Of a DNA stretch of 64,000 bases, positions 17,656 to 36,428 are shown in pieces (positions within the stretch are counted from its first letter, which is position 1; every line of letters begins with the position of its first letter). Where the stretch lies: positions 3,803,501 to 3,867,500 of the forward strand of contig NC_089438.1 in assembly GCF_026210795.1 (NCBI RefSeq), in the 5' to 3' direction. The notes beneath the pieces were generated by a model. It did not search any database. It was not told the origin of the DNA and saw only the letters and a program-made list of their open reading frames with translations. The DNA comes from Rhizophagus irregularis (lineage: Eukaryota; Glomeromycota; Glomeromycetes; Glomerales; Glomeraceae). The translations under genes and the position numbers were made by a program.

Positions 17656-17663
17656 TATATATA

Positions 17664-17773
17664 CACCCCAGCCAAATGATCGACATAGTTTATAAGCTGG
17701 ATGTTCGTGCGCTAACTTATAGCTTATAAACTGCCCATGGGCATATGTAGCCCACGGGATCTGATTGGTTCAG
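17664..17773 (+). repeat. Left terminal inverted repeat of the giant element
   Basis: Unique, non-satellite part of the terminus. It contains two internal inverted pairs: TTTATAAGCTGG / TAGCTTATAAACTG, and GCCCATGGGC followed by TAGCCCACGGGATCTGATT. It matches 36311-36420 in reverse complement. Confidence 0.88.
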
Positions 17774-19575
17774 AATGAGGACAATAATGTCCCCGTAATT
17801 ATGGACTATGTTGCGCCTTCAGTTTAAAAATGAGGACAATAATGTCCTCGTAATTATGGACTATGATAGTCCTTCAGTTTAAAAATGAGGACAATAATGT
17901 CCTCATAATTATGGACTGTGATAGTCCTTTAGTTTAAAAATGAGGACAATAATGTCCTCGTAATTATGGACTATGAAGTGCCTTCAATTTAAAAATGAGG
18001 ACAATAATGTCCTCGTAATTATGGACTATGATATGCCTTCAGTTTAAAAATGAGGACAATAATGTCCTCGTAATTATGGACAATGACATGCCTTCAGTTT
18101 AAAAATGAGGACAGTAATGTCCTCGTAATTATGGACTATGATGCGCCTTCAGTTTAAAAATGAGGACAATAATGTCCTAACGTAATTATGGACTATGACA
18201 AACCTTCAGTTTAAAAATGAGGACAATAATGTCCTCGTAATTATGGACTATGAAGTGCCTTCAATTTAAAAATGAGGACAATAATGTCCTCGTAATTATG
18301 GACTATGATATGCCTTCAGTTTAAAAATGAGGACAATAATGTCCTCGTAATTATGGACAATGACATGCCTTCAGTTTAAAAATGAGGACAATAATGTCCT
18401 CATAATTATGGACTATGATGTGCCTTGAGGACAATAATGTCCTAACGTAATTATGGACTATGACAAACCTTCAGTTTAAAAATGAGGACAATAATGTCCT
18501 CGTAATTATGGACTATGATGCGCCTTCAGTTTAAAAATGAGGACAATGTCCTCATAATTATGGACTATGATAGACCTTCAGTTTAAAAATGAGGACAATA
18601 ATGTCCTCATAATTATGGACAATGACATGCCTTCAGTTTAAAAATGAGGACAATAATGTCCTCATAATTATGGACTATGATGTGCCTTCAGTTTAAAAAT
18701 GAGGACAATAATGTCCTAACGTAATTATGGACTATGACAAACCTTCAGTTTAAAAATTAGGACAATAATGTCCTCGTAATTATGGACTATGATGCGCCTT
18801 CAGTTCAAAAATGAGGACAATGTCCTCATAATTATGGACTATGATAGACCTTCAGTTTAAAAATGAGGACAATAATGTCCTAACGTAATTATGGACTATG
18901 ATAAACCTTCAGTTTAAAAATGAGGACAATAATGTCCTCGTAATCATGGACTATGATGCGCCTTCAGTTTAAAATGAGGACAATAATGTCCTCATAATTA
19001 TGGACTATGATGCGCCTTCAGCTTAAAAATGAGGACAATAATGTCCTCATAATTATGGACTATGATGCGCCTTCAATTTAAAAATGAGGACAATAATGTC
19101 CTCATAATTATGGACTATGGTAGACCCTTCAGTTTAAAAATGAGGACAATAATATTCTCATAATTATGGACTATGTTGGGCTTTAGTTTAAAAATTAGGA
19201 CAATAATGTCCCTATACATCATGGCGGATTTATAGAATACCCAAAAATTTGTCTGTCATGTCAAATTAAATAAATATTAGATGAGGTATTATTTTAGTCA
19301 TCAAATTTCTATTTAAGTCCCAAATTTATTAGTGAACAGTCAAAAATGAGTTCTAAAAAATTTTTTTGTACCTTAAATCTTGCATCTAACCAATTTTCCC
19401 ATTATCTAACCAATTATTTCAGTATTAAAGGCACATCATTATTTGACATTTTTTAGGAAAAAGCTTAATGTTTTGGTAAGTCAATTTTGATTTCTGAGGG
19501 CGCAGCAGGATTTTTGCCAAATTTCATAAATCCGCTGCAATAAATGATGGACTATGATGGACTTCAGTTTAAAAA
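17774..19575 (+). repeat. Left subterminal satellite array, ~27 units of ~55 bp
   Basis: Each unit reads TGAGGACAATAATGTCCTCG, then TAATTATGGACTATGATGCG, CCTTCAGTTTAAAAA. The core GAGGACA-ATAA-TGTCCTC is a 7-bp palindrome arm pair and is the best conserved part, while the segment after GACTATG varies (GCG, AAG, CATG, TAGA). Some units are shortened to GGACAATGTCC. A higher-order repeat of about 277 bp is visible (17970-18240 against 18247-18520). A MITE interrupts the inner end at 19218-19548. Confidence 0.92.
19218..19548. mobile_element. MITE copy 1 inside the satellite array
   Basis: Ends ATCATGGCGGATTTATAGAAT and ATTTCATAAATCCGCTGCAATAA form terminal inverted repeats. Satellite sequence resumes right after it (GGACTATGATGGACTTCAG), so it inserted into the array. 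It is closely related to 26704-26967, sharing TTTGTCTGTCATGTCAAATT and CCCAAATTTATTAGTGAACA. No coding sequence. Confidence 0.7.
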
Positions 19576-20240
19576 TAAAGGAAAAAATTATATAGTGGAA
19601 CGGAAAGTTCACTATGACGAGCTTTGACTGTATAACTTTAGTTGCTTATTTAAATTTTTTTTTACTAGCTAGTACTAGTATTTTTAATTATCCAATCAAA
19701 ATTATAGTCCAGAGTTTAAGTATTAAATAAGTTGCAAATTCAACTGTAAAGTTCTTTAATTAATTGCATATGGTTTAATATATTTAATTTCAATTTTTAT
19801 ATAATGATAATATACATGATTTAAAATGTACAATTAGCTTACTGGTATATAATGAATTGGTCTGTTCTGTTCTGATCCAGTCTGGTTTTAACAAAACTAG
19901 TCTTTTAACTAGAACTGGATCAAATCAGCCTTTGAGCCATTTTAAAGATTGTTCTTTAGACTGGTATAAAACTGAAATTATTTTGCTATATGTATGTAGC
20001 TTTGACTTAATCAGAAAGACAATGAAATTATCAGTCATAACTTAACAGTCATTATTTAATTATATCTAATTTGTAATAAACTGATATGAAATTTGAAATA
20101 TGAAATTTTAATATTATATGATAATGAAATTAAATCATTTTATTGGATGAAAAATTTATAACCTTGGATTAAAGACCATAATAACCAGTTCTAGAACTGG
20201 GGAAATTATTTTATTACCAACTATAATGCTAACTATTCTA
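19576..20240. other. Spacer between the left array and the HMG-like gene
   Basis: AT-rich. 19857-20200 contains GGTCTG/CCAGTC and AACTAGAACTGG words resembling the ends of the hAT-like MITE at 46127-46684, so it may be a degenerate relative. No gene seen. Confidence 0.4.
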
Positions 20241-21705
20241 CTATTCACTCAAATTATTTATCTTAAAATATATGTTATTTAAATTACTTAATATCTTTTT
20301 CTTATCTTCAGTACTTAAATCAGAATAATTACAGAATAAAACATCTTCAGGCCATCCTATTATAGTATATTTAGTTTGGTTATACCAATTTTTATAGGGT
20401 ATTCTTTCTTTTGTTATCAAATCTATAATTAATTAAGTATAATTATTATTAACTTTCCATTATATTTAAAATTATAATTATTACTTACTAAATTTCTCTT
20501 GTAAATATTTTCTAACTTTATCACGTGCATTCTTACTATTTGGACATTCTTTATCAATAATAGATAATTGATCATCTGCACTTTCTATCATAGTTATATC
20601 CTCTATATCTTTTTGAAATGTAACTTGTTTAATAATTTCATTTTTAGCTGATACAGAATAATATAAAAAGTTAGTTAATTTTTATAACATTTGTATAAAA
20701 TAATATTATTATACCTGATTTTTTTAAACAAGAAAAATGATAAAAACTGTTATGAATTTCGTCTAGTTTTAAGCAGGACTTGTAAAATTCTTCACCAACT
20801 GGAGTTCCAAAATAAGAGATGTTCAATTCTTTGCTTAAAGGAATCACAAGTGTCAAAAATTCTACATCACAGGTAATTTGTAAAGTTCGATACTAGAAAT
20901 CAAGCATTTAATAATTAATTATATAGAATTTTATATTTTAACTGATAATCTAATAATATATATACATACCAATTTTCTAATTTCACAAATTTGTTTATTT
21001 AATTCAGCTTTGCGAAGTCTTATACTTTCTATTAATTTTGGTTCTTTATTGAATCTATTTTCAGATAATTCTTCAGCTCTGTTTTTAAAAGAATTCAATT
21101 GTTCTTTATTAAGCAATGCATATTCTTCAGCACATTGTTTTTGAGCTCCTGGAGTAGTAACTTTAATTTCTAGTAAATATATAATTCTTTTAATAAGTAA
21201 ATATTTTATGATAAATTAAACCAATAATATTTATAGAACATACTATTTTTTTTGAACCATTCAGTTTGAAATGTATTCCATGAACTAATACTGCGAGTCT
21301 TTTTTGGTGCTGGTTCTCGATTATCTTTCATGATACTCTATAATTTATAAAAAATTTGGTCAAATCAAAATAAATTATTCTTTGAATTGTATTCAAAATT
21401 TTTAACCTTTATAAATGCTAGCTCAAGTTGGCATTCATCAGATAACATTTGGATTTCTGCATCATGTTTTTGTTGTAAAGCAATAATCTTTTCATATTTT
21501 TCCTGTGTAAGACCTAAATTAAATTAATTAACTTAAATATAAACTGAAAGTATAAAGTATTTTAATATTTAAAACATTATATTGTAATTACCATCGCCTT
21601 TTTCTTTGAAAAGTTGATCACTAAAAGAATCAGATATGAGATATTAATACAAGGTAAATAATTTTTAAACAGTATATCAAAAAAACTTTACGTTGAAATA
21701 TCCAT
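20241..21705 (-). CDS. Eight-exon HMG-box-like protein carried by the giant element, 320 aa
   Basis: Hand-built model, exons (minus): 21705-21692, 21620-21592, 21513-21407, 21337-21244, 21169-20970, 20892-20715, 20647-20489, 20422-20241. All introns are GT-AG, 66-78 bp, and the 963-nt reading frame has no stop before TAG at 20241. The protein starts MDISTDQLFKEKGDG, has a charged helix (residues about 17-50), then KKTRSISSWNTFQTEWFKKN through QLNSFKNRAEELSENR (about 62-115), which resembles an HMG box: aromatic first helix, basic surface, third helix with KNRAEEL. A coiled stretch and a C-terminal conserved-looking part (KNWYNQTKYTIIGWPEDV) follow. A role in element DNA binding or regulation is inference; it could also be captured host cargo. 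The HMG assignment is by pattern, not alignment. Confidence 0.8.
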
Positions 21706-22079
21706 TATGAGATGGGTGTAAAGAGATTAAATGATCAAAAAGATGAAAAGATTGTGATGAAAAAAGCATGAAAATGTTATTTTAATTGGCTGTCAGCTAT
21801 TTTGATCAAGAATTATGATTGGCTAATAATCACCTGAAACAAACAAACAATCATTTGTACAATAAATAACGAAAAAAATATGATTCAAAGTTTTGGTGAC
21901 ATACTTTTAATTACTAACTTATCAAATTGCTTCTCTTTACTGAATTTTTAGAAAGCTTACTTATTCACTGTTAGGGTATTTAACTCATTACCATTTCTAA
22001 TATTTTCTCATTTTATTTTTTTAATAATTTTACTATTTTCTGAATTTTTTTGTTTTTATTATTTATACTTAACTCCTCT

Positions 22080-22700
22080 GTTTCTCTATCACTTCTTTTA
22101 TCCTTCTCTAATCAAGAATCCCCTTATCTTTTAATCCAATTCACCTATGCTTTGAGACTTCTCAGAACTTACTACTTCTTGACATCTCATTTTCCAAATT
22201 TTTTCATATATATACGTCAAATATAAGTCACAACATATCTTCAACATCTTTGAATCATCTACTTTACAATGTTTATATTGCCAAATCTTGATGTTAGAAA
22301 GTCCACGCATTATCTCATATAGTAAATTCTTAATGTAAATAATCTTGATTTAACATTACTATGTTGTAAAGCTTTTCTCTTTCTTTATTATCTTCTGTAA
22401 TTACATTGACTGCATCTATCCATAAATTAATAGAAGAATCTTGTTACAATGCTACTATATAGTAGTATGATCCCATGTTTCTGTTTCTTCATTACATCTT
22501 ATACATTTCTCTGAAGAAGTTCCAAAAACTTTCCTTTGATATAATATTTCATATGTTGGCAATGTTTAAAGAAACTTTTTGATCCTAAAAGCTCTAATTT
22601 GAGTATCCATCGCATTAGTTGATGATTTTGATACACTTGTTTCATTACGAATTATCATAAACAAAATTGGCCAATTGATGTTAACTTATATTAGTTACAA
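22080..22700 (-). pseudogene. Decayed LINE reverse-transcriptase C-terminus (fragment 1)
   Basis: The minus strand reads TQIRAFRIKKFLKTLPTYEI and then EKCIRCNEETETWDHT, the Cys-Cys-His motif found at the C-terminus of glomeromycete LINE polyproteins. Stops and frameshifts surround it. It is separate from the next fragment, which has its own copy of this motif. Confidence 0.6.
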
Positions 22701-22799
22701 ATAGCTGTTCTAATTATTTTAATAACATAATTTCTTTCTTATTGTTAAGACTACTAAGGTCTTTGGCCCATTTCTATAACAACCTTCCATATTTTATTT

Positions 22800-25700
22800 T
22801 TTAAAAAAAAATTTGCACTGCATTTCTTTATTAAACAATACCATAGATATACATATTAACGTCAGAAATACCTAGAGGCATGTGAAAAAGCACATGACCC
22901 TATAGCAAACCAGTCTATTTAAATACAAAGAGCATATATAATTATATATACCTGAGCGTGCAAAAAGAACTAACAACAATATATAATCGATGTCACTCAA
23001 CCCAAAAGAAACAATACAAAATAAAAAAAGAAAAACAAAAAACTTTCACACATAACATATATAAAAACTCTAGACCTAACAGAAAACTAAAATTTAACTA
23101 AAGTAAGATTACAAGTAACTTCCATTATACGGAAATGTGTTTAAAACCAAACGAAACTTTCATTAGTGACCACTCGCCCAGAATTATCACACCTCTTTTC
23201 CAACTTCCATCACCTATAATCCACTTATCCCTTTTTTTTATTTTTTTAATTTTAATAATGCATTTATTATCAATTACAAAAAGATTACATAAAAAAATTT
23301 TTAAAACACTAAAAAATAATTAAAAATTTTAATTATCTTCTATAACTAAAAGCATTTTATACTAAAAAATTTTTTTATACTAATTTATTTTAATACCCCC
23401 ATGATTTCGTAATTGATATACCTTCCATTATTTCTAATATTGTTTTCTATATTTTTTCTTTATCTTTTTCTATATTATCTGCTGTTTTGTATTTTTTCTC
23501 GCTTTACCTCCTCCTTTTGCTCTTTTGATCTTTTTTACGTTTCTTTTTCTCACCTTTCTTTAAATCCTTCTTTTCTTCTATCGCCACTACATCTTTACAT
23601 CTTTTATCCCATATTTTCAATCTTATATTCTCATAACAAAAACACCACAATTCTTCTATAATCATATTGTATTCTTTTTCTTCAAAATAAGATTGAAATT
23701 GTTATTATATAATCCTCTAAGCATCTCCCATTCTCTACTAAAACCTAATAAAATTCTTGTAGGCTTTTCTAATACTTGAACAAAATCCTATTAATATCTC
23801 ATAATATTGTCGAATCATCAATCTTTTTTTCATCCTCCAACTTTTTATCGAATTCTCTATAATTTCTCTTACAGAAAATTCATTACACTCACATTTCCAT
23901 TAATTATACCAATCTTCTTCTTCCTTATTGCATCTTGGGCAGGTATCATTATCAATCCAAATATTTTCCTTTTAAAAAGTACACTATATGTTAGTAATTC
24001 TTTTATCCAATTTTTAATTTTATACGCTCTTTCTTTTGTGTCCTCTTGCGCACATTGCCAAAATGTAAATTTGTTCCATTGCTTATAAATTTTAAAGACT
24101 TTACCCAATCGAATTTATTTCTGTAATTATAGGAAAATAAATCTTCAATCTTTTTACTATTTAAAATTTCGTTCTTCCATATCACTTCTGAAACTTTCTT
24201 TCGCCATCCCCTTAAATCTCCTAAAATCAAATTATATTTCCAATATAAATTGAATTCGTTGGTCACTAATCCCCCTTCATTAAAGTCTATCATATATGTT
24301 TCATTTTTGCTTTCTTTCATTTGCAATAGAATTTATCCATTTCTTCTTTACATATTTTTATATCGTTCGCCTCCTTCTCCGTACACGAAATCGTTCTTAT
24401 ATTCATTTGCGATCAAAACTTTTCTATTACCAATAACTCCATATTGTATTCATTATCTAACCTTCGTCTTGTACTTAAATTTTCTATAATTCTTTGATAA
24501 TTCACAAAATTTCCCATCTAAACCTAAAATTAATTCGCTATTACTATTTAATAAAATGATACCTATTATCAAACATCTTAATAAAATTTTGTATTCATTC
24601 TCAAACAATACTTTAAATTTTCTGTTAAAATTAATCTCATTCTTTGTAACGAATTCTTCATGTCTTATCTTCCACATTACTAAATATTCAATCGATTTTT
24701 TCCCATTTTCCTTAACTTTACTTTTTAGTTTCATAACCTCTATCATTAAAAAATTTACCTTCCTCCTAAAACTAAAATCGTCTTTCTCTAAAATACTATT
24801 CTTTAAAATTCTATCAGATTTTTATTTGTATTAACCAAATTATCTATCATCTCAATTCTTGTATTAAATCTTTATTCTTTTTATTCTTCTCTTAAATATT
24901 TTTCCACCAGATCATTTATTTTTAATATTTCGGAATGTCTCATAAGGTTTGATATTCCAACCTTCGTTCCGTTTTCTAATAATCCTACTTTCTTCATTTT
25001 AAATAAATTAAACATTCAATTTTACTCTCTTTATTCATATTTTTTTTTACCTATATTCTTTTTACAACCCTTACATTTAATTAAAGTAGGTGAATCATCT
25101 ATATTTATATTCTCATTTATCATGATCCAATGTATCCCTATCCTCTTATAATTTTTATTTCTTGATTTTTTCCTATCTTCTCCAAAGATAGGAAATCCTT
25201 TTTCATCATTCCATGTTATTAAATTATTTCTTGACACTTTCTCATTTTCATCAAAAATTTTCATATGAATATTATTTCTATCAAAATTTTTATTTTTATA
25301 TTAAATTTCTCATCTCTTTATTTTCTCTCACTTCGTTTTCTACAATCTTAAACCAATTAGGTATTTTACCTCTAAAACTCAAATCATTTCCTATAAAACA
25401 TGTTTCCACTTCATTATTCTAAATTGATTTGCTTCCAATAATTGTTCTAAAAAGAGAATTTCTTTCTTTCTTCGTGATAATGCACTTCTTTAAATTTCTG
25501 AATCAGGTAATAGATCTATTATCTCTATATTACCACCTTTAATCTTATGCCCTGCATTTTCGTCTAAAATCTCATGATTGCATAAACTCATGTTTCTGAT
25601 TTCAACAAGTTAATTGCATCGTTAATCTAACAATTGCGTCCTTTTATTGCTTTACCATTTATATCTCCTATGCACACTGCGGTCCACAATCTCATTTATT

Positions 25701-26170
25701 CTTGCATTATCTTGATTTTAAATAAAGTACTCAATTTTTCATTACCATTTGCTAAATAAATAACATTCTTACTTAAACTTTCAAGTTGCAGATCGTAAAT
25801 ATTTTTTAACCCATAAAATCTTTCTCATATAAAATCATTTTTTAAAGCTTTCATAATTTGTCCCCATCAAAATTTTTCCTTCGTTAGAATTTTACTTAGT
25901 CATTTACCAGAATTTTCAAAAATAATTTTCTCGCTGTCTCTATTAAAGTAATTGGTTGTATCAATTTCAAATCTTGATTCCAGTCGGATAAATTAGACCT
26001 TTTTTCCATTCTCCTAAAATTACTCCACACTCCATACCCTCATTAATTATTCCTAACAAAAACCTTTTGTTAAATTTTTACAATATTTCCAATAGTCATA
26101 TGGAATCCCACATTCCCACTAATATCTGGAGCTTTATTATTTTTTGCGTGCTGGCATCTCTATAAAAAAA
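22800..26170 (-). pseudogene. Decayed LINE with reverse transcriptase (fragment 2)
   Basis: Reading from 26160 downward in shifting frames: APDISGNV, GVILGEWKKGLIYP and IQPITLIETARKLFLKIL resemble the fingers/palm start of a LINE reverse transcriptase (the P-G-x-D-G-I and R-P-I-x-L-L-E-T region). Further on come NEKVSRNNLITWNDEKGFPI, DDSPTLIKCKGCKKN (Cys motif, about 25075), a basic region, and NDTCPRCNKEEEDWY (about 23960), followed by a Lys-rich tail near 23500. Stops are frequent, so the copy is dead. 22800-23330 looks like its 3' untranslated region. The plus-strand ORFs here (23135-25422) are F/L/S-rich shadows. Family name is from pattern memory. Confidence 0.6.
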
Positions 26171-27384
26171 ATAAGAAATTTCAGAAACATTTCTTTAAAA
26201 CAATTAAATTAAAGAAAAAGCTCTATCTCCTATAAGTGTCTACCTTCTTTGTTTAATGGCACCCTTTGAAAAACTTTAAATTTATATTTCATTTATACAG
26301 TATTCTCTATTGTCTCATGTTTTATTATACAAGTAAAGATTTTGATTATCTCAAATTTAGCTATAATAAATGATGGTACTGGATTATATTATAAATAGTT
26401 GATAGAAGCCAGGTGTAGAGTACTGAAATATTTGCAAAGAAATCTTAAAATAAAATTGGAATTTTAACAATTTAATTAGCGTTAATTAGGATAATCATTA
26501 AAAGCCGAAACCAAATTTACTTTTATACCATGTGAAATCAGACAATCAATACAAAATATGACGTAATAAAAGTTATTGGAAAAATCGAAAAATCAGAATT
26601 TTTTTATTTGATTATAATAAATATAAAAATAATTATTAAAAGTTTAATATTCAGTTTCATAATAAATATATAATATTTATATAACAACTTAATTAAAATT
26701 AACATCATGGCAGATTTATGAAATACCCCAAAATTTGTCTGTCATGTCAAATTAATTATATGTTTGATCACCAAATTTCTATTTAAGTCCCAAATTTATT
26801 AGTGAACAGTCAAAAATGAGCTTTAAAAATTTTTTTTTCCAGTGTTAAAGGCGCATCATTATTTGACATTTTTTTAGGAAAAATTTCTGTAAGTCAATTT
26901 TAATTCCCAAGGGCGCAGCAGGACTTTTTCCAAATTTCATAAATCTTTATAAATCTGCTGCAATGATGATAATCAGTAATATTTATTTCTTGAAAAAATA
27001 ATCGCAAATGAAGTTAAATTTTTTCGCCTAATATGAAGAATTTTATGCCACAATAAATTTGCATCATTTTTGTGATTGATTTAATATATAAATTTGCACA
27101 AGAAAATAATTTTTACACAAAAACCCTATAACTATCTTTTTTTATTTAGTAATCATTAATTTAAATTTGATTGATGATATATTACATTTTATTTTCAATT
27201 GACCGTTTATGATTAAATAATCCTTTGTAATTTAAATTGTATTATAGTTACTAATTAAAAAAATTCAAATAAAATGTATAGATTTTTTTTTATTATTTTA
27301 GCCCCCATTTGATCGGAGTACAAACTATAAATAAGTTTTCTATAATTTTTAACAGGTAATTAAAGTAATTATTCTATTTTGAGT
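26171..27384. other. Spacer with MITE copy 2
   Basis: AT-rich and without genes. It contains a MITE at 26704-26967; the remainder up to the ACGCGT repeats shows nothing recognisable. Confidence 0.5.
26704..26967. mobile_element. MITE copy 2
   Basis: Starts ATCATGGCAGATTTATGAAAT and ends with the mirrored ATTTCATAAATC...CTGCAATGAT. Internally it matches copy 1 at 19218-19548 over most of its length but is shorter by about 65 bp. The left end also matches, in reverse complement, short tracts at 39005-39042 and 61389-61425. Confidence 0.7.
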
Positions 27385-27690
27385 TACAATCTAAAAATAG
27401 TATAGAAAACATTTCAAACATTTTCCCATTACGCGTTTAATTCTAAAAATAGTATAGAAAACATTTCAAACATTTTCCCATTACGCGTTTGATTCTAAAA
27501 ATAGTATTGAAAACATTTTAAACATTTTTCCATTACGCGTTTAATTCTAAAAATAGTAAAACATTTTCCCATTACGCGTTTAAGTCATTTAATTCTATAA
27601 ATAGTATAGAAAACATTTCAAACATTTTCCATTACGCGTTTAATTCTAAAAATAGTAAAACATTTTACCATTACGCGTTTAATTCTAAAA
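27385..27690 (+). promoter_or_regulatory. Tandem repeat with six ACGCGT boxes upstream of the 555-aa gene
   Basis: Units of about 52 bp (some 38-40 bp) read ATTCTAAAAATAGTATAGAA, AACATTTCAAACATTTTCCC, ATTACGCGTTTA. ACGCGT occurs at 27431, 27483, 27535, 27573, 27633 and 27673, ending about 110 bp before the start codon at 27782. ACGCGT is the MluI cell-cycle box bound by the MBF complex at G1/S in ascomycete yeasts. Whether it works so here is inference; the conservation of the hexamer in every unit is what is seen. Confidence 0.6.
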
Positions 27691-27781
27691 ATAATTAATT
27701 ACAAATGTACTAGAATAAAATAACATAAACAATCCCTATTTTTCTTTTTTTTTAACGTTTACGAAATTTTAAACTTTTACA

Positions 27782-29772
27782 ATGTCAAATAATATAAAGG
27801 TAAATTGTACTTTTAGTTATTATAGTTAAATAAAATTATTTATAATGTATTTAATATGTTTATTTATTTAACTTTAAGGACAATAAAGTTTCATTATCAT
27901 TATCTGATAATGACAATATAAAAATTTCAGAAGCTTTATCTTTTATTCGTAATAAACTTCAAGGCCGCCTTAAAAACATTTCTGTCATCAACGATCGTAC
28001 AGCTGTCGTCATATATGGAAAACATAAAGATAGATTGATGATCGATTTGAAGGATAATAATTATTATGAAAATTTAGAAGTAAGATTATTAAAATTAAAT
28101 TCTTTTTTTTCTCTATAATTTATATTTATATTTTTATATGCATATTAGGAAAAACTCGAAGCACTTAAAGCTGAAAATAATAATTTGCTGGTAAATAGTG
28201 TTATATATAATACAAATGTGTTTTAATTTTAAAATTTACATTTTATTAAAATTTTATTTAATATATTAAAATTTACTTTAGTCTGAATTGAAGAAGTTTG
28301 AAACCCTGGCGCGTTTTGATGGATCATTTTCAACAGTCGTATCATCAGATAATTATAATAACGAAACTAGTCTAGTTGATAACATATCTACAACTTCTAC
28401 TGCATCTAATAATTTGCCATCAATGTCATCCCCGTCTATATCATCTTCTTCTAAACCTTTTAAATTAGAAGATTATATTACAGTTTTAAATAATGATTTA
28501 AATACCGTTAATCAATCAATTGAAGATGATTCTGATGAAATTTGGGAGAAATTAAATTCCAGATGCCACAAAAAATTTGGATATAATAACGAAATCAAAC
28601 AACCTACAAGAGAGGATATAAAATGGGGGGCTGATATTCTACCTATTTATGCAGAATGGAAAAAACTAAAAGATTTTAAATGTTTAATAGAAAAATGGAT
28701 CGCTAAAATCAACGAATATATGCAGAAAAATGATATGTTATCGTCGTCCCCAACTTTAATTTCATCTTCATCTTCGTTCTCAACATTAATTCAACCATCA
28801 CCATCTTCAACATCAGTTCCATTATCATTTGTCTCTTTAATTAAAGGAAAGAAAGTAAGAGATAATGTAAATGAAAGCATAGAAGTTGTAAAAATTAATG
28901 TAGATAATAAAAATGAAGTGGACGAAGATGTAGAAATTATGGAGATTGATGTAGAAAATGACAATATACAAAATGAAGAAACTGAAGGTATTTCTGTTTT
29001 TTATTGAACTAATAAATATAATTATTATTAATTTATATTTATATAATCTATTATATTTCTTAAATCAATAGATAAAGCAAAAAAAAACCTTGAAGCTAAA
29101 GAATTAAAAGAGAAGAAATTCAAAAAATTTGGTGAAAAACTCCGAAAACTAGTTATGGATGATCTTCAATCAAATACTCATGATTCACCAGTTCAAAAAT
29201 TGGCAGATAAAGATATGGTTAATGAATCGGATTTACAAAATAATAATTTAACGCACTCCCTTAATCTTTTAACTGCTGAACCAATTAAGATTATAGATAA
29301 AACAAGTGGTATACAAAGAGTCAAGCAGTGGGCCCTCCAAAAGAACCAAATAGAAAAAATTGGAATAGCGTTCAATGTATTCAAGTTTTATCATAGGATG
29401 TCCTTGATTGATATTTATAATGAAATTAATGTTGTGGCAGAATCAAATTTTCCAAATCAGAAGGGTAAACAAAGGACATTTGTAAAAGAGATTATTTGTA
29501 TTCAAGAAGGCATTTCAGAACGTTCAGAACAACGTTTTAAAACAAGTGCAATGAGGTTACAACATATCGTTAGTGCAGGAATATCCTTTAATCAGATAAT
29601 TAAAGTAGGAATGCACGTATCTGATTTTGAATCCACCAACCATTTTTATGAAATATTTATGGAAGCACTTGATATCAATTCAATAGAAAATTTAAATGAA
29701 GGAGTACGACCATTAAATACAAAAATTTTATTTGATAAATTGTCAGCATATGAAATAATGGAACTAGATTAA
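27782..29772 (+). CDS. Five-exon protein of unknown function in the giant element, 555 aa
   Basis: Exons: 27782-27799, 27879-28079, 28149-28190, 28282-28987, 29072-29772; introns 69-91 bp, all GT-AG, frame unbroken over 1668 nt. The N-terminal ~70 residues hold a compact-looking domain (SEALSFIRNKLQGRLKNISV, then TAVVIYGKHKDRLMIDL), followed by a short coiled coil (EEKLEALKAENNNLLSELKK), a Ser/Thr-rich linker, an acidic central part, a basic stretch (KKFKKFGEKLRKL), and a C-terminal ~170-residue region (SGIQRVKQWALQKNQIEKIG to KLSAYEIMELD) that looks folded. No family recognised and no catalytic motif seen. It lies 537 bp upstream of the transposase on the same strand, so an accessory role in transposition is plausible but unproven. 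Confidence 0.85.
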
Positions 29773-30308
29773 TGAGTTTTAGCATTTATTAATTTTTAGT
29801 TAAATTTGTATTGTTTTTTTTTTGAAGTAGGGAATTATTATAAAATCTTTACTAAATATTATTAAAATTATTGAAATAAAAGATTCTTAAAGTAATAGTT
29901 CAGTATAAATTAAAGTTACCGTGCATTGCTTAAAAGGCCCATTTTAGCTTCTATATTTAATACCGACCCAAAATATCATAATATATAGATTTTTTTTATT
30001 TTCTTAAATTAAGAATATTAAACCATTAAACCATTACTATAAGTTGAATGAAATCTTTCGTACATTAAATTTGTTTAATACAGCAGGATGTATGTATACA
30101 CCCGATCTAATTAAATGTTTTAAACCTGGTAAATTGATTTATACCTAAGGTATTAGGCAGTGTTATAAGGTACTTATGGTAATATCTGCTAATCTGCTTT
30201 TATTTTATAAATAGATTTGATCTGCAGCAAGTAGTCTAATTGGCTAATTTAGTTTGATCAATCCCGAAAAATTTTTTTTTGTAAATTTATTCTTTTTACA
30301 TATTTAAT
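29773..30308. other. Intergenic spacer before the transposase
   Basis: AT-rich 3' region of the 555-aa gene and promoter region of the transposase. No ORF or repeat worth naming. Confidence 0.5.
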
Positions 30309-33300
30309 ATGAATAAAGGAAATTTGAATAAAAAAGGTATTTATATTATTGTTATTAAAGAAATATATTTAAATTGTTACTTAATATCTTTTATTTTTAG
30401 GTAAAATTAGTTACAGGCCTTATTTAGTTTCTTCAAATAAAAAAAATGCAAAAAAAGTAGTTATTAATCGATATGCAAAAGGAAGTAACAAATATCGAGC
30501 CAAAAATTTATCTGAAAATATATATAAATCTACTGAAATAGTGGATGAAGATAGAAACAATGATGAATGGATAGATATTGATATTATAAAAGAAGATGAA
30601 AACTATAGTTCTGCTAAAAATACATATAAAAATGCTCAAAAAAATTTGTCCGAAAATTGGAGAAAAATCTCACCAAAATTATTTGACATTATGATAGAAA
30701 ATAATGCAATTAATAAGGACTCCAAATGCTTCAAATGTAATTCACCTGCCATTTGTTATTGTTTAGATTGTGGTCTTAATACTTATTTGTGTTTAGAGTG
30801 TAATACTTTATATCATAAGGATATAAATTTATTTCATAGAAAAGTTTTTATAAGTAGTATTTTTGATAAAGAAGAAATAAAACTACCACAATTATGTACA
30901 GGATTTTGTGAGCATGAAATTAAGGAAATATCAATCATTAATTTAAAAGGTAAAGTATAAATCTTATTTGTTATACTTTAATAAAATTTTCAATTAAATA
31001 AATATTGCATTAAATAGGAATATTTAAAGCAAAATTTCCAACTTGTGAAGGTTTGGTTGAAACATTAATCAGGCATAAATTATTTCCTTCCACCCCTATA
31101 AATCCACAAGTTGCTTTCTCATTTGAATTATTTGATATTTATCAAGAATTATTACTCGAAGCACATGTATCATATCTTTCATTTTGTCGAGTATTAGAAT
31201 CATTATTCTCTGATCAAGATATAACTAGAGTTAAGTTTTTAAAAAATTTCATTATATTAATGTTATATAGTTTACTAATATGTTTTTATTATTATTAGAA
31301 CATATATTATCTTTTTAAATCTGCTTTTCATCAATATTTAGGATTAAAAACTATGATTGAAAATACTATTAATAAGTTATTTAGTAGTAAATCACAATTT
31401 AATTGTCCAGCTTGTCCACAGGTAACTTTATTTTTTGCTTGATTTACTTCCCATTTATATTTTTAAAAACTTTTTTACATTATATTTTGAATTAATAAAC
31501 AAATTTAATTATAGCCAGAAGAGAAAAACTCTAAAATTATAATTGCATTGGATGCTAATTTTCAACTTAAACGAATGAAAAGTGCTGGTTCTAATATTGG
31601 TGAAAGAATAATTGAAGAATCATTTATTTTAAACCAAAATAAATATGATGAATGGGTACAAAATTCGATTAATTTAAGTTCATTAAATACATTAAATATA
31701 AATAATAATAATGCGGTAAGTATTCTATATATATATTTGTTGTTTATTTAACTTCATTTATTATTTTAATTTGTTAATTATTAATTATTTATTATTTCAT
31801 TAAGCAAATAAATGTATGTGACAGCCATTTTAAAGCGGCTAATCAAACAAAAGCAAACCTTAAATCCAATTATTTGGACGATACAGGAATATTTGGAAGT
31901 ACATGTAGGCACGGCATTCCTTTAAAATTTATTAATTTAAAAGGAATTGGTGAAAGGTAATTTATATATTATTGTAATATTAACATTTGATATTAACATT
32001 AGTTATTCATATTATATAATTACATTTTTATAGATTTTCTTTAGCAGAATATATTTTATCAGATTTACATAATATGTTTTATGAAGATTCTTCTACATTT
32101 ATTGTCTTATATGATATTGCATGCAATCTTCATTCACATGTAGAAAAAAGTGAAAGTAGACTTTTTCCATTCAAATCTCGATTTAATTGGTGTGTTTCAA
32201 TATTTCATGCCTATGCACATTCAATGAAATGCCAATTAAATTACCACCCAAGGGCTTGTAATTCCATAGGATTAACTGATGGGGAAAGTTTAGAAAGACT
32301 GTGGTCATATTTAGGACGCTTTTCTTCTACAACAAGATATATGAGACCACATCATAGATTGGATATTTTAGAAAAAGGAATTCAGCATATAAGTAGAAAA
32401 ATGATTAGTAATTTAGGTAATGTTCAATTAAATTTATGATAATTTAAAATATTTATATTTTAATTTATATTTTTATTTTATATCAGCATGTAACTTAGTT
32501 AAAAGGTTTAAAAATGCTTATAAAATAATGAATGTATCAGTAAAAATATTAAAAGAAATGGAACAAATGCATGGAATTGATGAAAGTAAAATACTTTATT
32601 ATATTCAGTGCCAGTATGAATCCAATTTTGGTAAATATTATGTATTTTATTATGCTAATTTTTTAAAAATTAGTTTTAATATATGAGATTTTTAGTTTTT
32701 AGGCAACATTTAATTGGAAAAGAGTTGTATTTCTTAAACCTAATGGAATTACATCGATATGAGTATGTACTAATTTTATTCAAGTAATAATTATTTTAAT
32801 ATTACTAAATACTAATATTATTTTTTTAGGATTGAAATATCAAAAGCTAACTCTGAAAGACAGTTGGAATCATTAAAAAGATCTCGCTCATTATATATAA
32901 AAAAAGTTGAAAAATGTGAATCAGATTTAGATATACCTGAATCAAAAAGATGGAATCCATTTAATCCTATATATTCCAAATATTTTCATGATTATTGTGA
33001 ACGTAATTTGGATTTAATTTCTGATAAGCTTAGAAAATTTCGTAATGAATATATATTTAAAAATTCACAATTATATAATCAAGACCATATAGGTAATTAT
33101 ATATATTTGTAATCTTAACTTATTTATTAAAATATTATTTAACCATATTTATTTTTATTAGGTCATAAGTTAACATTAAAAATTAAATCAAGTATTAAAG
33201 ATATTTCAAAACAAATTGAAATAAACATTTCATATTATGAATATTTCAGATTACTTGCACAAGAAAATTCATTTTGTAAAGATTATCCAAAAGCAATATT

Positions 33301-33953
33301 TAATGAAATAGTTAATCATACGTCAGATTTTTGGCAAATATTAGATATATCAATTAATGATAAAATGGATAATATACCTCGAATAGTTATATTCAATTCA
33401 ATTAAAAATTTTAATAATTTACAACGGTCTAAAGAAGAAATATCATTAATTGTGCAAGAATTAAAAAGATTATATGATTTCTGGATGAATTATAAAATTA
33501 AAATTGAAAATAAATTACAACAATTACAACAATTTAATGAAAAAACTACAAAAAATGTAAGTATTATTCATTTTTATCTTGTAATTATTTTGAACAAGCT
33601 ATTAATAATCTAAATAAAAAATTTGTTTGTAGTATGGAATGATTTGTATTTTGATGAAATATTATAAAAATGTAAGTAAAAATTTAGAAAATTGTCAGAT
33701 AGCTTTAAACAAAATTGAAAATTACAAAGTGAATAATACTGTACAAGTAGTAGATGTTCCAATTTATGATTTAATTAATGAGATTGAGGAAGATAATCTT
33801 TTAAAAGGAGATTTAGCAGAAAATTTAACTGAATTAGAAATTTGTGATAATGAAGAATGTATAGAATATGAAGGGGAAATAGTAGATAAAAGTAAAGATT
33901 GTGAAGAAGAAATAATAACAGAAGGTGAAAGTATGGATTATAAAATAGTATAA
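30309..33953 (+). CDS. KDZ (Kyakuja-Dileera-Zisupton) transposase, 12 exons, 945 aa
   Basis: Exons: 30309-30336, 30401-30949, 31018-31229, 31299-31421, 31515-31715, 31805-31956, 32034-32416, 32487-32630, 32696-32762, 32830-33092, 33162-33556, 33633-33953. All introns are GT-AG, 64-93 bp, and the 2838-nt frame is open to the end. A zinc-binding cysteine/histidine cluster sits at about residues 119-155 (KCFKCNSPAICYCLDCG, LCLECNTLYH), of the CxC type known in KDZ transposases. The catalytic fold shows IALDANFQLKR (Asp 317), LYDIACNLH (Asp 449), FHAYAHSMKCQ and GLTDGESLERLWSYLGR (Glu 506 or 509), the standard KDZ landmarks. The C-terminal third is coiled and acidic, ending MDYKIV. It should cut and join the ends of the surrounding element. 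Gene and element look recently active because nothing is broken. Confidence 0.93.
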
Positions 33954-34589
33954 TCGATCCAAAAGGAGCAATATGAATTGAATATCTAATAAATCTGACA
34001 AATATTTTGATACTTAAAAAAATTAGTCATATATGATATAATATTTATTATAACAACTTTGAAATAAATAGAAGAAACCTATTTTACTTTAAAAATAACT
34101 TTTCTAACAATTTGATTAGGAGTTTAAAGCGGTAAAAAAATATTGCAATTAAAATATATTTTTATTTCTCTAAATTTTCTGCCATATTATTACCTTTTAG
34201 TTTAAATGGTTATGGCACAATTTCCTGACGGGATTACATTTGCCTGAAAGATTTGGCCAGTGTTATGCAGGTTATGCATGAACACGTGATCAAACGGCCA
34301 GCGTTAGGTTATTGGAAAAATGTCCTGTCAGGGAACAGTCCATAAGTGGTTTAAATAGACAATCAAATATGAAAATACATTTTAAACAAAAAGAACATGC
34401 TATTTATAATATAACCTGTTAATAGTAAGTTATATGAGTATACTACTGTTATTATTTTAAATGAGATCTATAATTATAAAGACACTATGATTGTCCATTT
34501 ACTAATTAGGAGGTTCCTATAATCTATATATGAATACAGAAGCTGAATATAATTTAAATGAGAGGTCCAATATAGTCTGTAATTATGAG
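33954..34589. other. Spacer between the transposase and the right array
   Basis: AT-rich with no gene. A short inverted repeat (TTTCCTGACGGGA at about 34221, TCCTGTCAGGGAA at about 34323) bounds about 115 bp and may be a small MITE. From about 34490 decayed satellite units begin to be visible. Confidence 0.45.
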
Positions 34590-36310
34590 AGCTATTTTTA
34601 AACTAAAGGACTATCATAATCTATAATTACGAGGACATTATTGTCCTCATTTTTAAACTGAAGGCACATCATAGTCCATAAATACGAGGACATTATTGTC
34701 CTCATTTTTAAGTTGAAGGTCTATCATAGTCCATAATTACGAGGACATTATTGTCCTCATTTTTAAACTAAAGGACTATCATAGTCCACAATTACGAGGA
34801 CATTATTGTCCTCATTTTTAAACTGAAGGCACATCATTGTCCATAATTATTAGGACATTATTGTCCTTATATTTAAACTGAAGATCTATCATAGTCCATA
34901 ATCACAGGGACATTATTGTCCTCATTTTTAAACTGAAGACACTTCATACTAGTCCATAATTACAAGGACATTATTGTCCTCATTTTTAAGTTGAAGGTCT
35001 ATCATAGTCCATAATTACGAGGACATTATTGTCCTCATTTTTAAACTAAAGGCTTGTCATAGTCCATAATTACGAGGACATTATTGTCCTCATTTTTAAA
35101 CTGAAGGCACATCATTGTCCATAATTATTAGGACATTATTGTCCTCATTTTTAAAATGAAGATCTATCATTGTCCATAATTACGAGGACATTATTGTCCT
35201 CATTTTTAAACTAAAGGACTATTATGGTCCATAATTACGAGGACATTATTGTCCTCATTCTTAAATTGAAGGCACTTCATAGTCCATAATTATTAGGACA
35301 TTATTGTCCTTATTTTTAAACTGAAGATCTATCATAGTCCATAATCACAGGGACATTATTGTCCTCATTTTTAAACTGAAGACACTTCATACTAGTCCAT
35401 AATTACGAGGACATTATTGTCCTCATTTTTAAGTTGAAGGTCTATCATAGTCCATAATTACGAGGACATTATTGTCCTCATTTTTAAACTAAAGGCTTGT
35501 CATAGTCCATAATTACGAGGACATTATTGTCCTCATTTTTAAACTGAAGATCTATCATGGTCCATAATTACGAGGACATTATTGTCCTCATTCTTAAATT
35601 GAAGGCACTTCATAGTCCATAATTACAAGGACATTATTGTCCTCATTTTTAAACTAAAGGACTATCATAGTCTATAATTACGAGGACATTATTGTCCTCA
35701 TTTTTAAATTGAAGGCACTTCATAGTCCATAATTACGAGGACATTATTGTCCTCATTTTTAAACTAAAGGACTATCATAGTCTATAATTACGAGGACATT
35801 ATTGTCCTCATTTTTAAATTGAAGGCACTTCATAGTCCATAATTACGAGGACATTATTGTCCTCATTTTTAAACTAAAGGACTATCATAGTCTATAATTA
35901 CGAGGACATTATTGTCCTCATTTTTAAACTGAAGGCACATCATTGTCCATAATTATTAGGACATTATTGTCCTCATTTTTAAACTGAAGATCTATCATGG
36001 TCCATAATTACGAGGACATTATTGTCCTCATTTTTAAACTAAAGGACTATCATAGTCCATAATTACGAGGACATTATTGTCCTCATTCTTAAATTGAAGG
36101 CACTTCATAGTCCATAATTACGAGGACATTATTGTCCTCATTTTTAAACTAAAGAACTATCATAGTCCATAATTATGAGGACATTATTGTCCTCATTTTT
36201 AAGCTGAATAAGGCGCATCATAGTCCATAATTATGAGGACATTATTGTCCTCATTTTTAAACTGAAGGCGCAACATAGTCCATAATTACGGGGACATTAT
36301 TGTCCTCATT
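34590..36310 (-). repeat. Right subterminal satellite array, ~31 units of ~55 bp
   Basis: Same unit as the left array but in the opposite orientation: ATAATTACGAGGACATTATT, GTCCTCATTTTTAAACTGAA, then a variable piece before ATCATAGTCC. A higher-order repeat is clear: about 34894-35110 is repeated at about 35333-35545, including the odd variants CACAGGGACATT and CATACTAGTCC. Neighbouring blocks around 35,650-35,930 are near-identical, so the array has grown by local duplication. The innermost units are the most decayed. Confidence 0.92.
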
Positions 36311-36420
36311 CTGAACAAATCAGATCCCGTGGGCTACATATGCCCATGGGCAGTTTATAAGCTATAAGTTAGCGCACGAACATCCAGCTTATAAACTATG
36401 TCGATCATTTGGCTGGGGTG
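36311..36420 (-). repeat. Right terminal inverted repeat of the giant element
   Basis: Reverse complement of 17664-17773, with one noticed difference (GATTTGTTCAG against GATTGGTTCAG in the same strand sense). It ends GGCTGGGGTG at 36420. Confidence 0.88.
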
Positions 36421-36428
36421 TATATATA

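Follow-up and report, generated by a model that had tools for sequence, protein, structure and literature searches.

A complete KDZ transposon with mirrored palindrome arrays in Rhizophagus irregularis and an accessory protein proposed to read them

How a large fungal transposon keeps its two ends recognizable, and why it should carry genes besides its transposase, are the questions raised by a stretch of 64,000 nucleotides from the genome of Rhizophagus irregularis, an arbuscular mycorrhizal fungus (contig NC_089438.1, positions 3,803,501 to 3,867,500; hereafter the window). Positions 17664-36420 of the window constitute a complete DNA transposon of the KDZ superfamily, 18.8 kb long and flanked by an 8-bp target-site duplication, in which a KDZ transposase gene and two accessory genes (gene 1 and gene 2) lie between two mirror-image satellite arrays. 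We propose, with a probability of roughly 0.6, that this is an autonomous cut-and-paste element whose gene 2 product would read the GGACA-N4-TGTCC palindromes repeated throughout the arrays.

Structure and mobility of the element

The inverted ends at 17664 and 36420 agree at 142 of 143 bases. An earlier examination of the window without database searches (the sequence-only reading) had noticed opposed terminal repeats of about 105 bp, and these are borne out, the repeat, 143 bp in full, continuing directly into the first array unit: the left terminal inverted repeat (17664..17806, plus strand) begins CACCCCAGCC and the right one (36278..36420, minus strand) has GGCTGGGGTG as its final bases, the element thus showing CA..TG termini and CACCC...GGGTG ends. 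The short sequence that had been seen outside both repeats proved to be TATATATA, which directly abuts the two ends (17656-17663 and 36421-36428) as an 8-bp target-site duplication. We rejected TATATATA as a preferred target, since four other copies of the element have different 8-bp duplications.

The predicted transposase (30309..33952, plus strand; a spliced model of 945 aa in 12 exons) had been described as an unbroken frame, which it is not, being open only after splicing of 11 predicted introns. It contains the Pfam KDZ domain PF18758 at residues 311-540 (E 3.9e-51; 174.3 bits against a cut-off of 26.6), preceded by an N-terminal CxC2/CxC1-like cysteine cluster that also exceeds the Pfam cut-offs (CxC2, 34.6 bits against 27; CxC1, 28.7 against 26.9). 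The KDZ domain, the CxC cluster and the terminal inverted repeats with their 8-bp duplication place the element in the KDZ superfamily.

The 146.7-Mb genome was searched with the first 117 bp of the element end, the best 40 of 76 candidates being scored. Among the 40 matches listed, ten at 99-100% identity form five pairs bounding elements of 18.1-22.2 kb, each with one identical KDZ core; none of these ten ends lies apart from the transposase. Genome-wide, the KDZ core gave 13 matches, five of them in these five full copies (E1-E5). All five are flanked by perfect 8-bp duplications, each of them different, those of the four non-window copies being TTTGACTG, TGAAAATC, ACATAAAG and TGATTCCG (the first and the last also read on the opposite strand). 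Between the arrays, identity to the window copy is 99.94% (E2), 99.87% (E3) and 99.82% (E5), and the two pieces into which an insertion divides this stretch in E4 reach 99.82% and 100%; such near-identity indicates recent spread. Two insertions interrupt E4, one of them within an end and one of 2.9 kb in the transposase, and gene 1 of E3, with one base less, is frameshifted; gene 2 reads open in 5/5 copies, gene 1 and the transposase in four of the five each. Empty-site searches covered the window copy and E2. When the flanks of E2 were joined around one copy of the duplication, they matched C16:1272331-1272630 at 98% over 300/300 bases, a paralogous empty site; those of the window copy gave partial matches only (77% over query positions 1-176 and 68% over 1-178). 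The proposal that a KDZ transposase travels with two other genes as one mobile unit is therefore supported by the full copies, their different perfect duplications, the E2 empty site and the KDZ domain itself, with transposition shown by structure.

A further 30 ends among the matches listed are 84-86% identical to the query. Twenty-two of them pair up into 11 intervals that enclose no KDZ core match, nine with perfect 8-bp duplications, and the other eight have no listed partner (among the best 40 of 76 candidates). Flanks were read at 18 end pairs, namely the five copies, L010-L013, seven further pairs (two with a one-base shift) and the relatives on contigs C28 and C5: 16 show perfect 8-bp duplications, L012 has one mismatch and L010 none. 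Four short elements with 3.3-6 kb between their ends share little with the window element except the end (84-86%) and the palindrome; these four, with their unrelated interiors, and a 29.5-kb non-autonomous element have one to three palindromes at each end (5/5 read). The KDZ families described here are complete, young and probably autonomous; their ends are defined exactly, as are their duplications, and they have non-autonomous partners.

The palindrome follows gene 2 rather than the transposase

The mirrored 55-bp arrays noticed inside both ends were found as described and in opposite orientation. The left subterminal array (17774..19211, plus strand) has 26.3 copies of the unit with 24 exact GGACN6GTCC sites, and its mirror on the right (34594..36310, minus strand) has 31.1 copies with 31 such sites, the longest mirror pairs between the two reaching 410 nt at 92%. 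All 55 GGACN6GTCC sites of the window lie inside the two arrays (0.07 expected), with none in the 45 kb outside. In the gapped-palindrome test, which covered 256 tetramers at 13 spacings (3,328 patterns) in seven sets with an expectation from base composition only, GGAC-N6-GTCC came first of all patterns in 7/7 sets, at about 977-fold or more over that expectation; the runner-up (187-fold) is a nested form of it, and the third, which is the best unrelated pattern, reaches 1.5-fold. The longer form GGACA-N4-TGTCC fits 212 of 215 sites and occurs 1,467 times genome-wide against 21 for the reversed pattern, whereas the looser GGACN6GTCC gives 1,896 against 277.

Satellites of this kind could be passive, that is, amplified by slippage or gene conversion, with a palindrome that stems from common ancestry or from hairpin-prone sequence and has no reader protein. 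The lengths of the copies, which differ despite near-identical cores and hence mainly in the arrays, would suit this explanation, and so would the modest conservation of the palindrome within the window-element arrays considered below. Nonetheless, the array units vary among four KDZ lineages (55; 49; 26/52; 99 + 65 bp) and GGACA-N4-TGTCC persists in them together with its spacing. Exact GGAC-N6-GTCC sites number 55 in the window element and 34 (two outside arrays), 58 and 19 in the lineages on C5, C28 and C10, the 6-bp spacing prevailing in every set and no other spacing between 0 and 12 giving more than five sites per set. The palindrome moreover adjoins gene 2 in elements of another superfamily, as detailed next, and we consider passive satellites a distinctly improbable explanation.

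Gene 2 (27782..29772, plus strand; 555 aa, five predicted exons), the proposed array reader, was sought throughout the genome, 78 of 104 candidates being scored. Eight gene-2 loci without a KDZ core have 43 palindromes in the 16,008 bp flanking them, with none of the reversed control and with sites in 15 of 16 flanks; four further such loci (three on C1, one on C2) also bear sites, so that 12 of the 13 examined, a remnant excluded, have palindromes. At three loci, on C2, at C1:2363500 and at C1:3182000, reading frames identify the neighbouring transposase as hAT (DUF659, 3.3e-18 and 3.4e-15; Dimer_Tnp_hAT, 5e-7), while for the eight loci above the flanks alone were fetched. Within the hAT family, palindromes are found in the interval from the first to the middle exon of gene 2, on the 3' side of the gene and at the far end. 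Among the sites listed along C1, up to 3.19 Mb, there are four clusters of at least three: three include gene 2, and the fourth lies next to a remnant of it. That fourth cluster (C1:2363975-2367875) had been a candidate for a cluster without gene 2, rejected when a hAT gene 2 query revealed the remnant at about 2368176-2368493. Copies of this multi-copy hAT family, with their gene-2 homologue and palindrome, were seen at C1:3140000-3146500, C1:3182000-3188500, C1:201000-207500 and C2:1325500-1332500 (L041, L042, L039 and L037).

The KDZ lineage on C5 separates the two candidate partners of the palindrome. Its transposase matches that of the window element at 61%, versus 49% to both others, whereas its gene 2 is closest to those of C13 (58%) and of the hAT elements (51-55%), matching the window element at only 31-39%; the C5/hAT grouping of gene 2 received a support of 100 in both IQ-TREE runs. 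The palindrome spacer of C5, AAAATT, is that of the hAT elements, the window element having AATAAT. Since the C5 transposase is near that of the window element while its gene 2 and its spacer are of hAT type, spacer and gene 2 changed together and separately from the transposase. The palindrome therefore follows gene 2 rather than the transposase.

DNA transposons commonly carry subterminal sites for their transposase, and the arrays could accordingly be supposed to bind the KDZ transposase itself through its cysteine-cluster domain, with genes 1 and 2 serving other functions. The CxC2/CxC1-like domains over the Pfam cut-offs and the palindromes retained by non-autonomous elements speak for such an arrangement. 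Against it, the identical palindrome with the same 6-bp spacing is found in the hAT family, whose own transposase is not related to KDZ, and the spacer of C5 tracks its hAT-like gene 2 and not the transposase nearest to that of the window element. Binding by the transposase is thus improbable.

A proposed role for the gene 2 product

We envisage that the KDZ transposase, whose catalysis is presumed, would cut at the CACCC...GGGTG ends and insert all 18.8 kb of the element, generating an 8-bp duplication. The mirrored arrays would offer many tandem sites to a DNA-binding protein, probably a dimer, recognising GGACA-N4-TGTCC, and the gene 2 product is the candidate for this protein suggested by its co-occurrence with the palindrome in two unrelated superfamilies and by the matching spacers. 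Once bound, the arrays may label the two ends or bring them together for transposition, which is what TnpA does in CACTA elements, and/or hold the element accessible to transcription in the manner of plant VANC proteins. The palindromes kept at both ends of non-autonomous elements favour the role in movement. Conversely, the palindromes between the gene-2 exons of the hAT elements, the CG methylation of R. irregularis transposons (PMC8647823) and the likeness to VANC targets (PMC5735166) favour a role against silencing. Both roles may hold.

Each role has a counterpart in plants. In CACTA elements, TnpA binds subterminal repeats and is needed in transposition (PMC2613891). En/Spm shares with the window element a transposase with a second element protein and subterminal motifs, its non-autonomous elements being mobile if the cis sites are kept (PMC2613891). 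The window element is not itself a CACTA element, having CACCC termini and an 8-bp duplication in place of CACTA ends and 3 bp; furthermore, binding by TnpA is established (PMC2613891), whereas binding by the gene 2 product is proposed. In the VANDAL elements of Arabidopsis, an accessory protein gene is likewise accompanied by a short motif, placed in tandem repeats that evolve rapidly and occupy noncoding sequence, introns included, the VANC motif repeats lying in introns of VANC21 and VANB21 and upstream of VANA21 (PMC5735166), and related proteins affect different targets (PMC5735166, PMC10398659). The fungal elements show the same arrangement of a motif in noncoding or intronic repeats beside an accessory gene, in the KDZ arrays and in the interexon sites of the hAT gene 2. 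They differ in that the VANDAL elements belong to plants and have a demonstrated methylation loss, and in that the gene and motif pair is here common to KDZ and hAT.

The VANDAL parallel can be pressed further, by taking arrays and gene 2 as a purely epigenetic anti-silencing device outside the cutting machinery. CG methylation at transposons has been reported in R. irregularis (PMC8647823), and the positions of the hAT sites around the gene-2 exons resemble the VANC motif repeats of VANDAL (PMC5735166). On the other hand, elements without the gene set keep one to three sites per end, which fits a cis requirement for movement, and scans of gene 2 and its relatives found neither DUF1985 nor DUF287, the families of VANC (PMC5735166). 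We regard a purely epigenetic device as unlikely. A broader suggestion, to which we give slightly less than an even chance, is that gene 2 and GGACA-N4-TGTCC form a portable module traded between KDZ and hAT elements, with protein and spacer changing together: a fungal counterpart of VANC or TnpA, possibly directed against CG methylation. One protein and one 14-bp palindrome make a simple testable pair for studying how large fungal transposons mark their ends or escape methylation, and the natural swap in C5 predicts which gene 2 protein should bind which spacer.

Several observations weigh against gene 2 as the reader of the arrays. Within the window-element arrays, conservation of the palindrome (0.92) scarcely exceeds that of the remaining unit (0.88). 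Since the hAT copies compared are 98-99% alike, their loci do not count as independent, and the C5 swap is a single event. The gene-2 homologue at C13:692141-693544 has no palindrome in 5,001 bp, despite its C5/hAT-type grouping. As to the protein, gene 2 matched no Pfam family, profile searches against solved structures gave no confident match (best E 0.12-0.34), and single-sequence structure models were uninformative, one piece having a pLDDT of 44 and the other showing two long helices that may be over-confident. The C13 homologue (C13:690500-695500, L038), in which a frame of 468 aa is open, could stand on its own as a copy possibly retained by the host.

Accessory genes, relatives and published counterparts

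Homologues of both gene 1 and gene 2 are present at 6/6 other KDZ loci with a core match of at least 57% (C5, C10, C25, C28, C17 and C20), their order and orientation varying; this recurrence indicates that the two genes are not random cargo. Neither gene was among the matches listed near the weaker partial core matches on C15 and C18. The idea that both were taken up by chance as host-useful cargo, as in Starships, would suit a large element with a filler-like stretch at 22.0-26.7 kb, and it has little chance in the face of that recurrence. No metabolic or resistance domain was found by Pfam in either gene, and the interior frames of the 29.5-kb relative look by eye like nested transposable elements. 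A KDZ transposase with inverted repeats also takes the place of the Starship tyrosine recombinase, of which Pfam scans of the three gene models and two filler frames found none, the remaining filler lying outside the scan. The filler, which separates gene 1 from gene 2 by about 4.7 kb (window 22000-26700), is retained in 5/5 copies, and two short minus-strand reading frames within it (24003..24821) matched no Pfam family.

Gene 1 (20241..21705, minus strand; 320 aa, eight predicted exons) contains weak HMG-box-like and GTF2I-like stretches below the Pfam cut-offs (E 0.11 for the former; E 5.4e-4, in two of four members, for the latter, which is C-terminal). Nineteen of 60 columns of its C-terminal stretch are invariant across four lineages, and profile searches against solved structures returned no match for it. 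Six matches to gene 1 lie away from KDZ cores (C6, C1, C25:2344631, C11, C23 and C3), and the hAT loci searched yielded none. The KDZ elements probably have in gene 1 a second DNA-binding factor. Three blocks of gene 2 are conserved, and the gene is preceded by a tandem array with six ACGCGT hexamers (27390..27693, plus strand) ending about 100 bp before its ATG. ACGCGT is the MCB site of fungal G1/S regulators, and the timing of gene 2 might thus be tied to the cell cycle. Of the four KDZ lineages, two have this array immediately before gene 2, with six hexamers in the window element and seven at C28:2065809-2066225, and there is none in C5 or C10.

The sequence-only reading knew of no description of such a size and layout in glomeromycetes. 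The size in itself is not new, giant KDZ elements that bear accessory genes having been described before, with up to 30.3 kb in Ectocarpus and 31.7 kb in Chlamydomonas (PMC12477816). Those of Ectocarpus resemble the window element in size class, in extra genes mostly of unknown function, in nested insertions fixed among copies and in having non-autonomous families, whereas mirrored arrays or an accessory gene common to another superfamily are not mentioned in the consulted parts of the source (PMC12477816). No description of the window element or of such arrays in KDZ was found in the literature searched, partly as extracts, with subscription papers and Repbase outside its scope, and a full-text search for KDZ subterminal tandem repeats gave no match. 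The array/gene-2 module common to KDZ and hAT seems to be new. For R. irregularis itself, the consulted text of PMC11075540 names KDZ once, as a search profile, and states that two-thirds of the transposable elements are unclassified.

Among fungal KDZ elements, an 8-bp duplication is described for Cryptococcus KDZ1, one of KDZ1-3 (PMC12810828), and for Dileera, TET-positive elements of the Dileera, Kyakuja and Zisupton groups having been described in fungi (PMC12730594). The window element is like these published elements in its KDZ catalytic domain and CxC-type cluster, its inverted repeats of more than 100 bp, its 8-bp duplication (KDZ1, Dileera) and its accessory genes, which some of them have. 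It differs in length (18-19 kb versus about 9-11 kb), in its two accessory genes without a Pfam family, in its long mirrored palindrome arrays and, from the TET-positive elements, in that its three gene models gave no Tet_JBP match in the Pfam scan. Kyakuja, represented by two Laccaria families, has CA..TG termini, a 7-bp duplication and no terminal inverted repeats (PMC12730594); the window element has the same termini but a duplication of 8 bp and inverted repeats of 143 bp. TET/JBP homologues were seen at 13 places in the genome, including C8:3485036-3485503, two of them over the Pfam cut-off and none at the KDZ elements studied.

The other KDZ lineages lie at C5:487168-504588 (17.4 kb), at C28:2055009-2072822 (17.8 kb, with more 99-100% end pairs on C25, C20 and C17) and from C10:4196724, where the right end was not found. 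Viral contigs scanned with the KDZ core revealed no relative. The 29.5-kb element at C4:1940139-1969634 has ends 84-86% similar to those of the window element and a perfect 8-bp duplication, GATGCTTA, and has the look of a short non-autonomous element that nested insertions have enlarged. For the 27-30 kb relatives, host cargo was rejected, the frames of this element appearing by eye, without a Pfam scan, to be of LINE, Gypsy and Tc1 type; its interior was read, while C4:2960319-2987869 is known by its ends only. End pairs like those of C28, at 90-94%, stand 8.6-33 kb apart without a KDZ core match at C10:2863334-2871900, C12:633540-642119, C19:524228-532909, C29:2907446-2930815 and C11:919605-952675. 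Within the window element, two similar short stretches with inverted ends by eye (19218-19545 and 26702-26965) resemble nested miniature elements.

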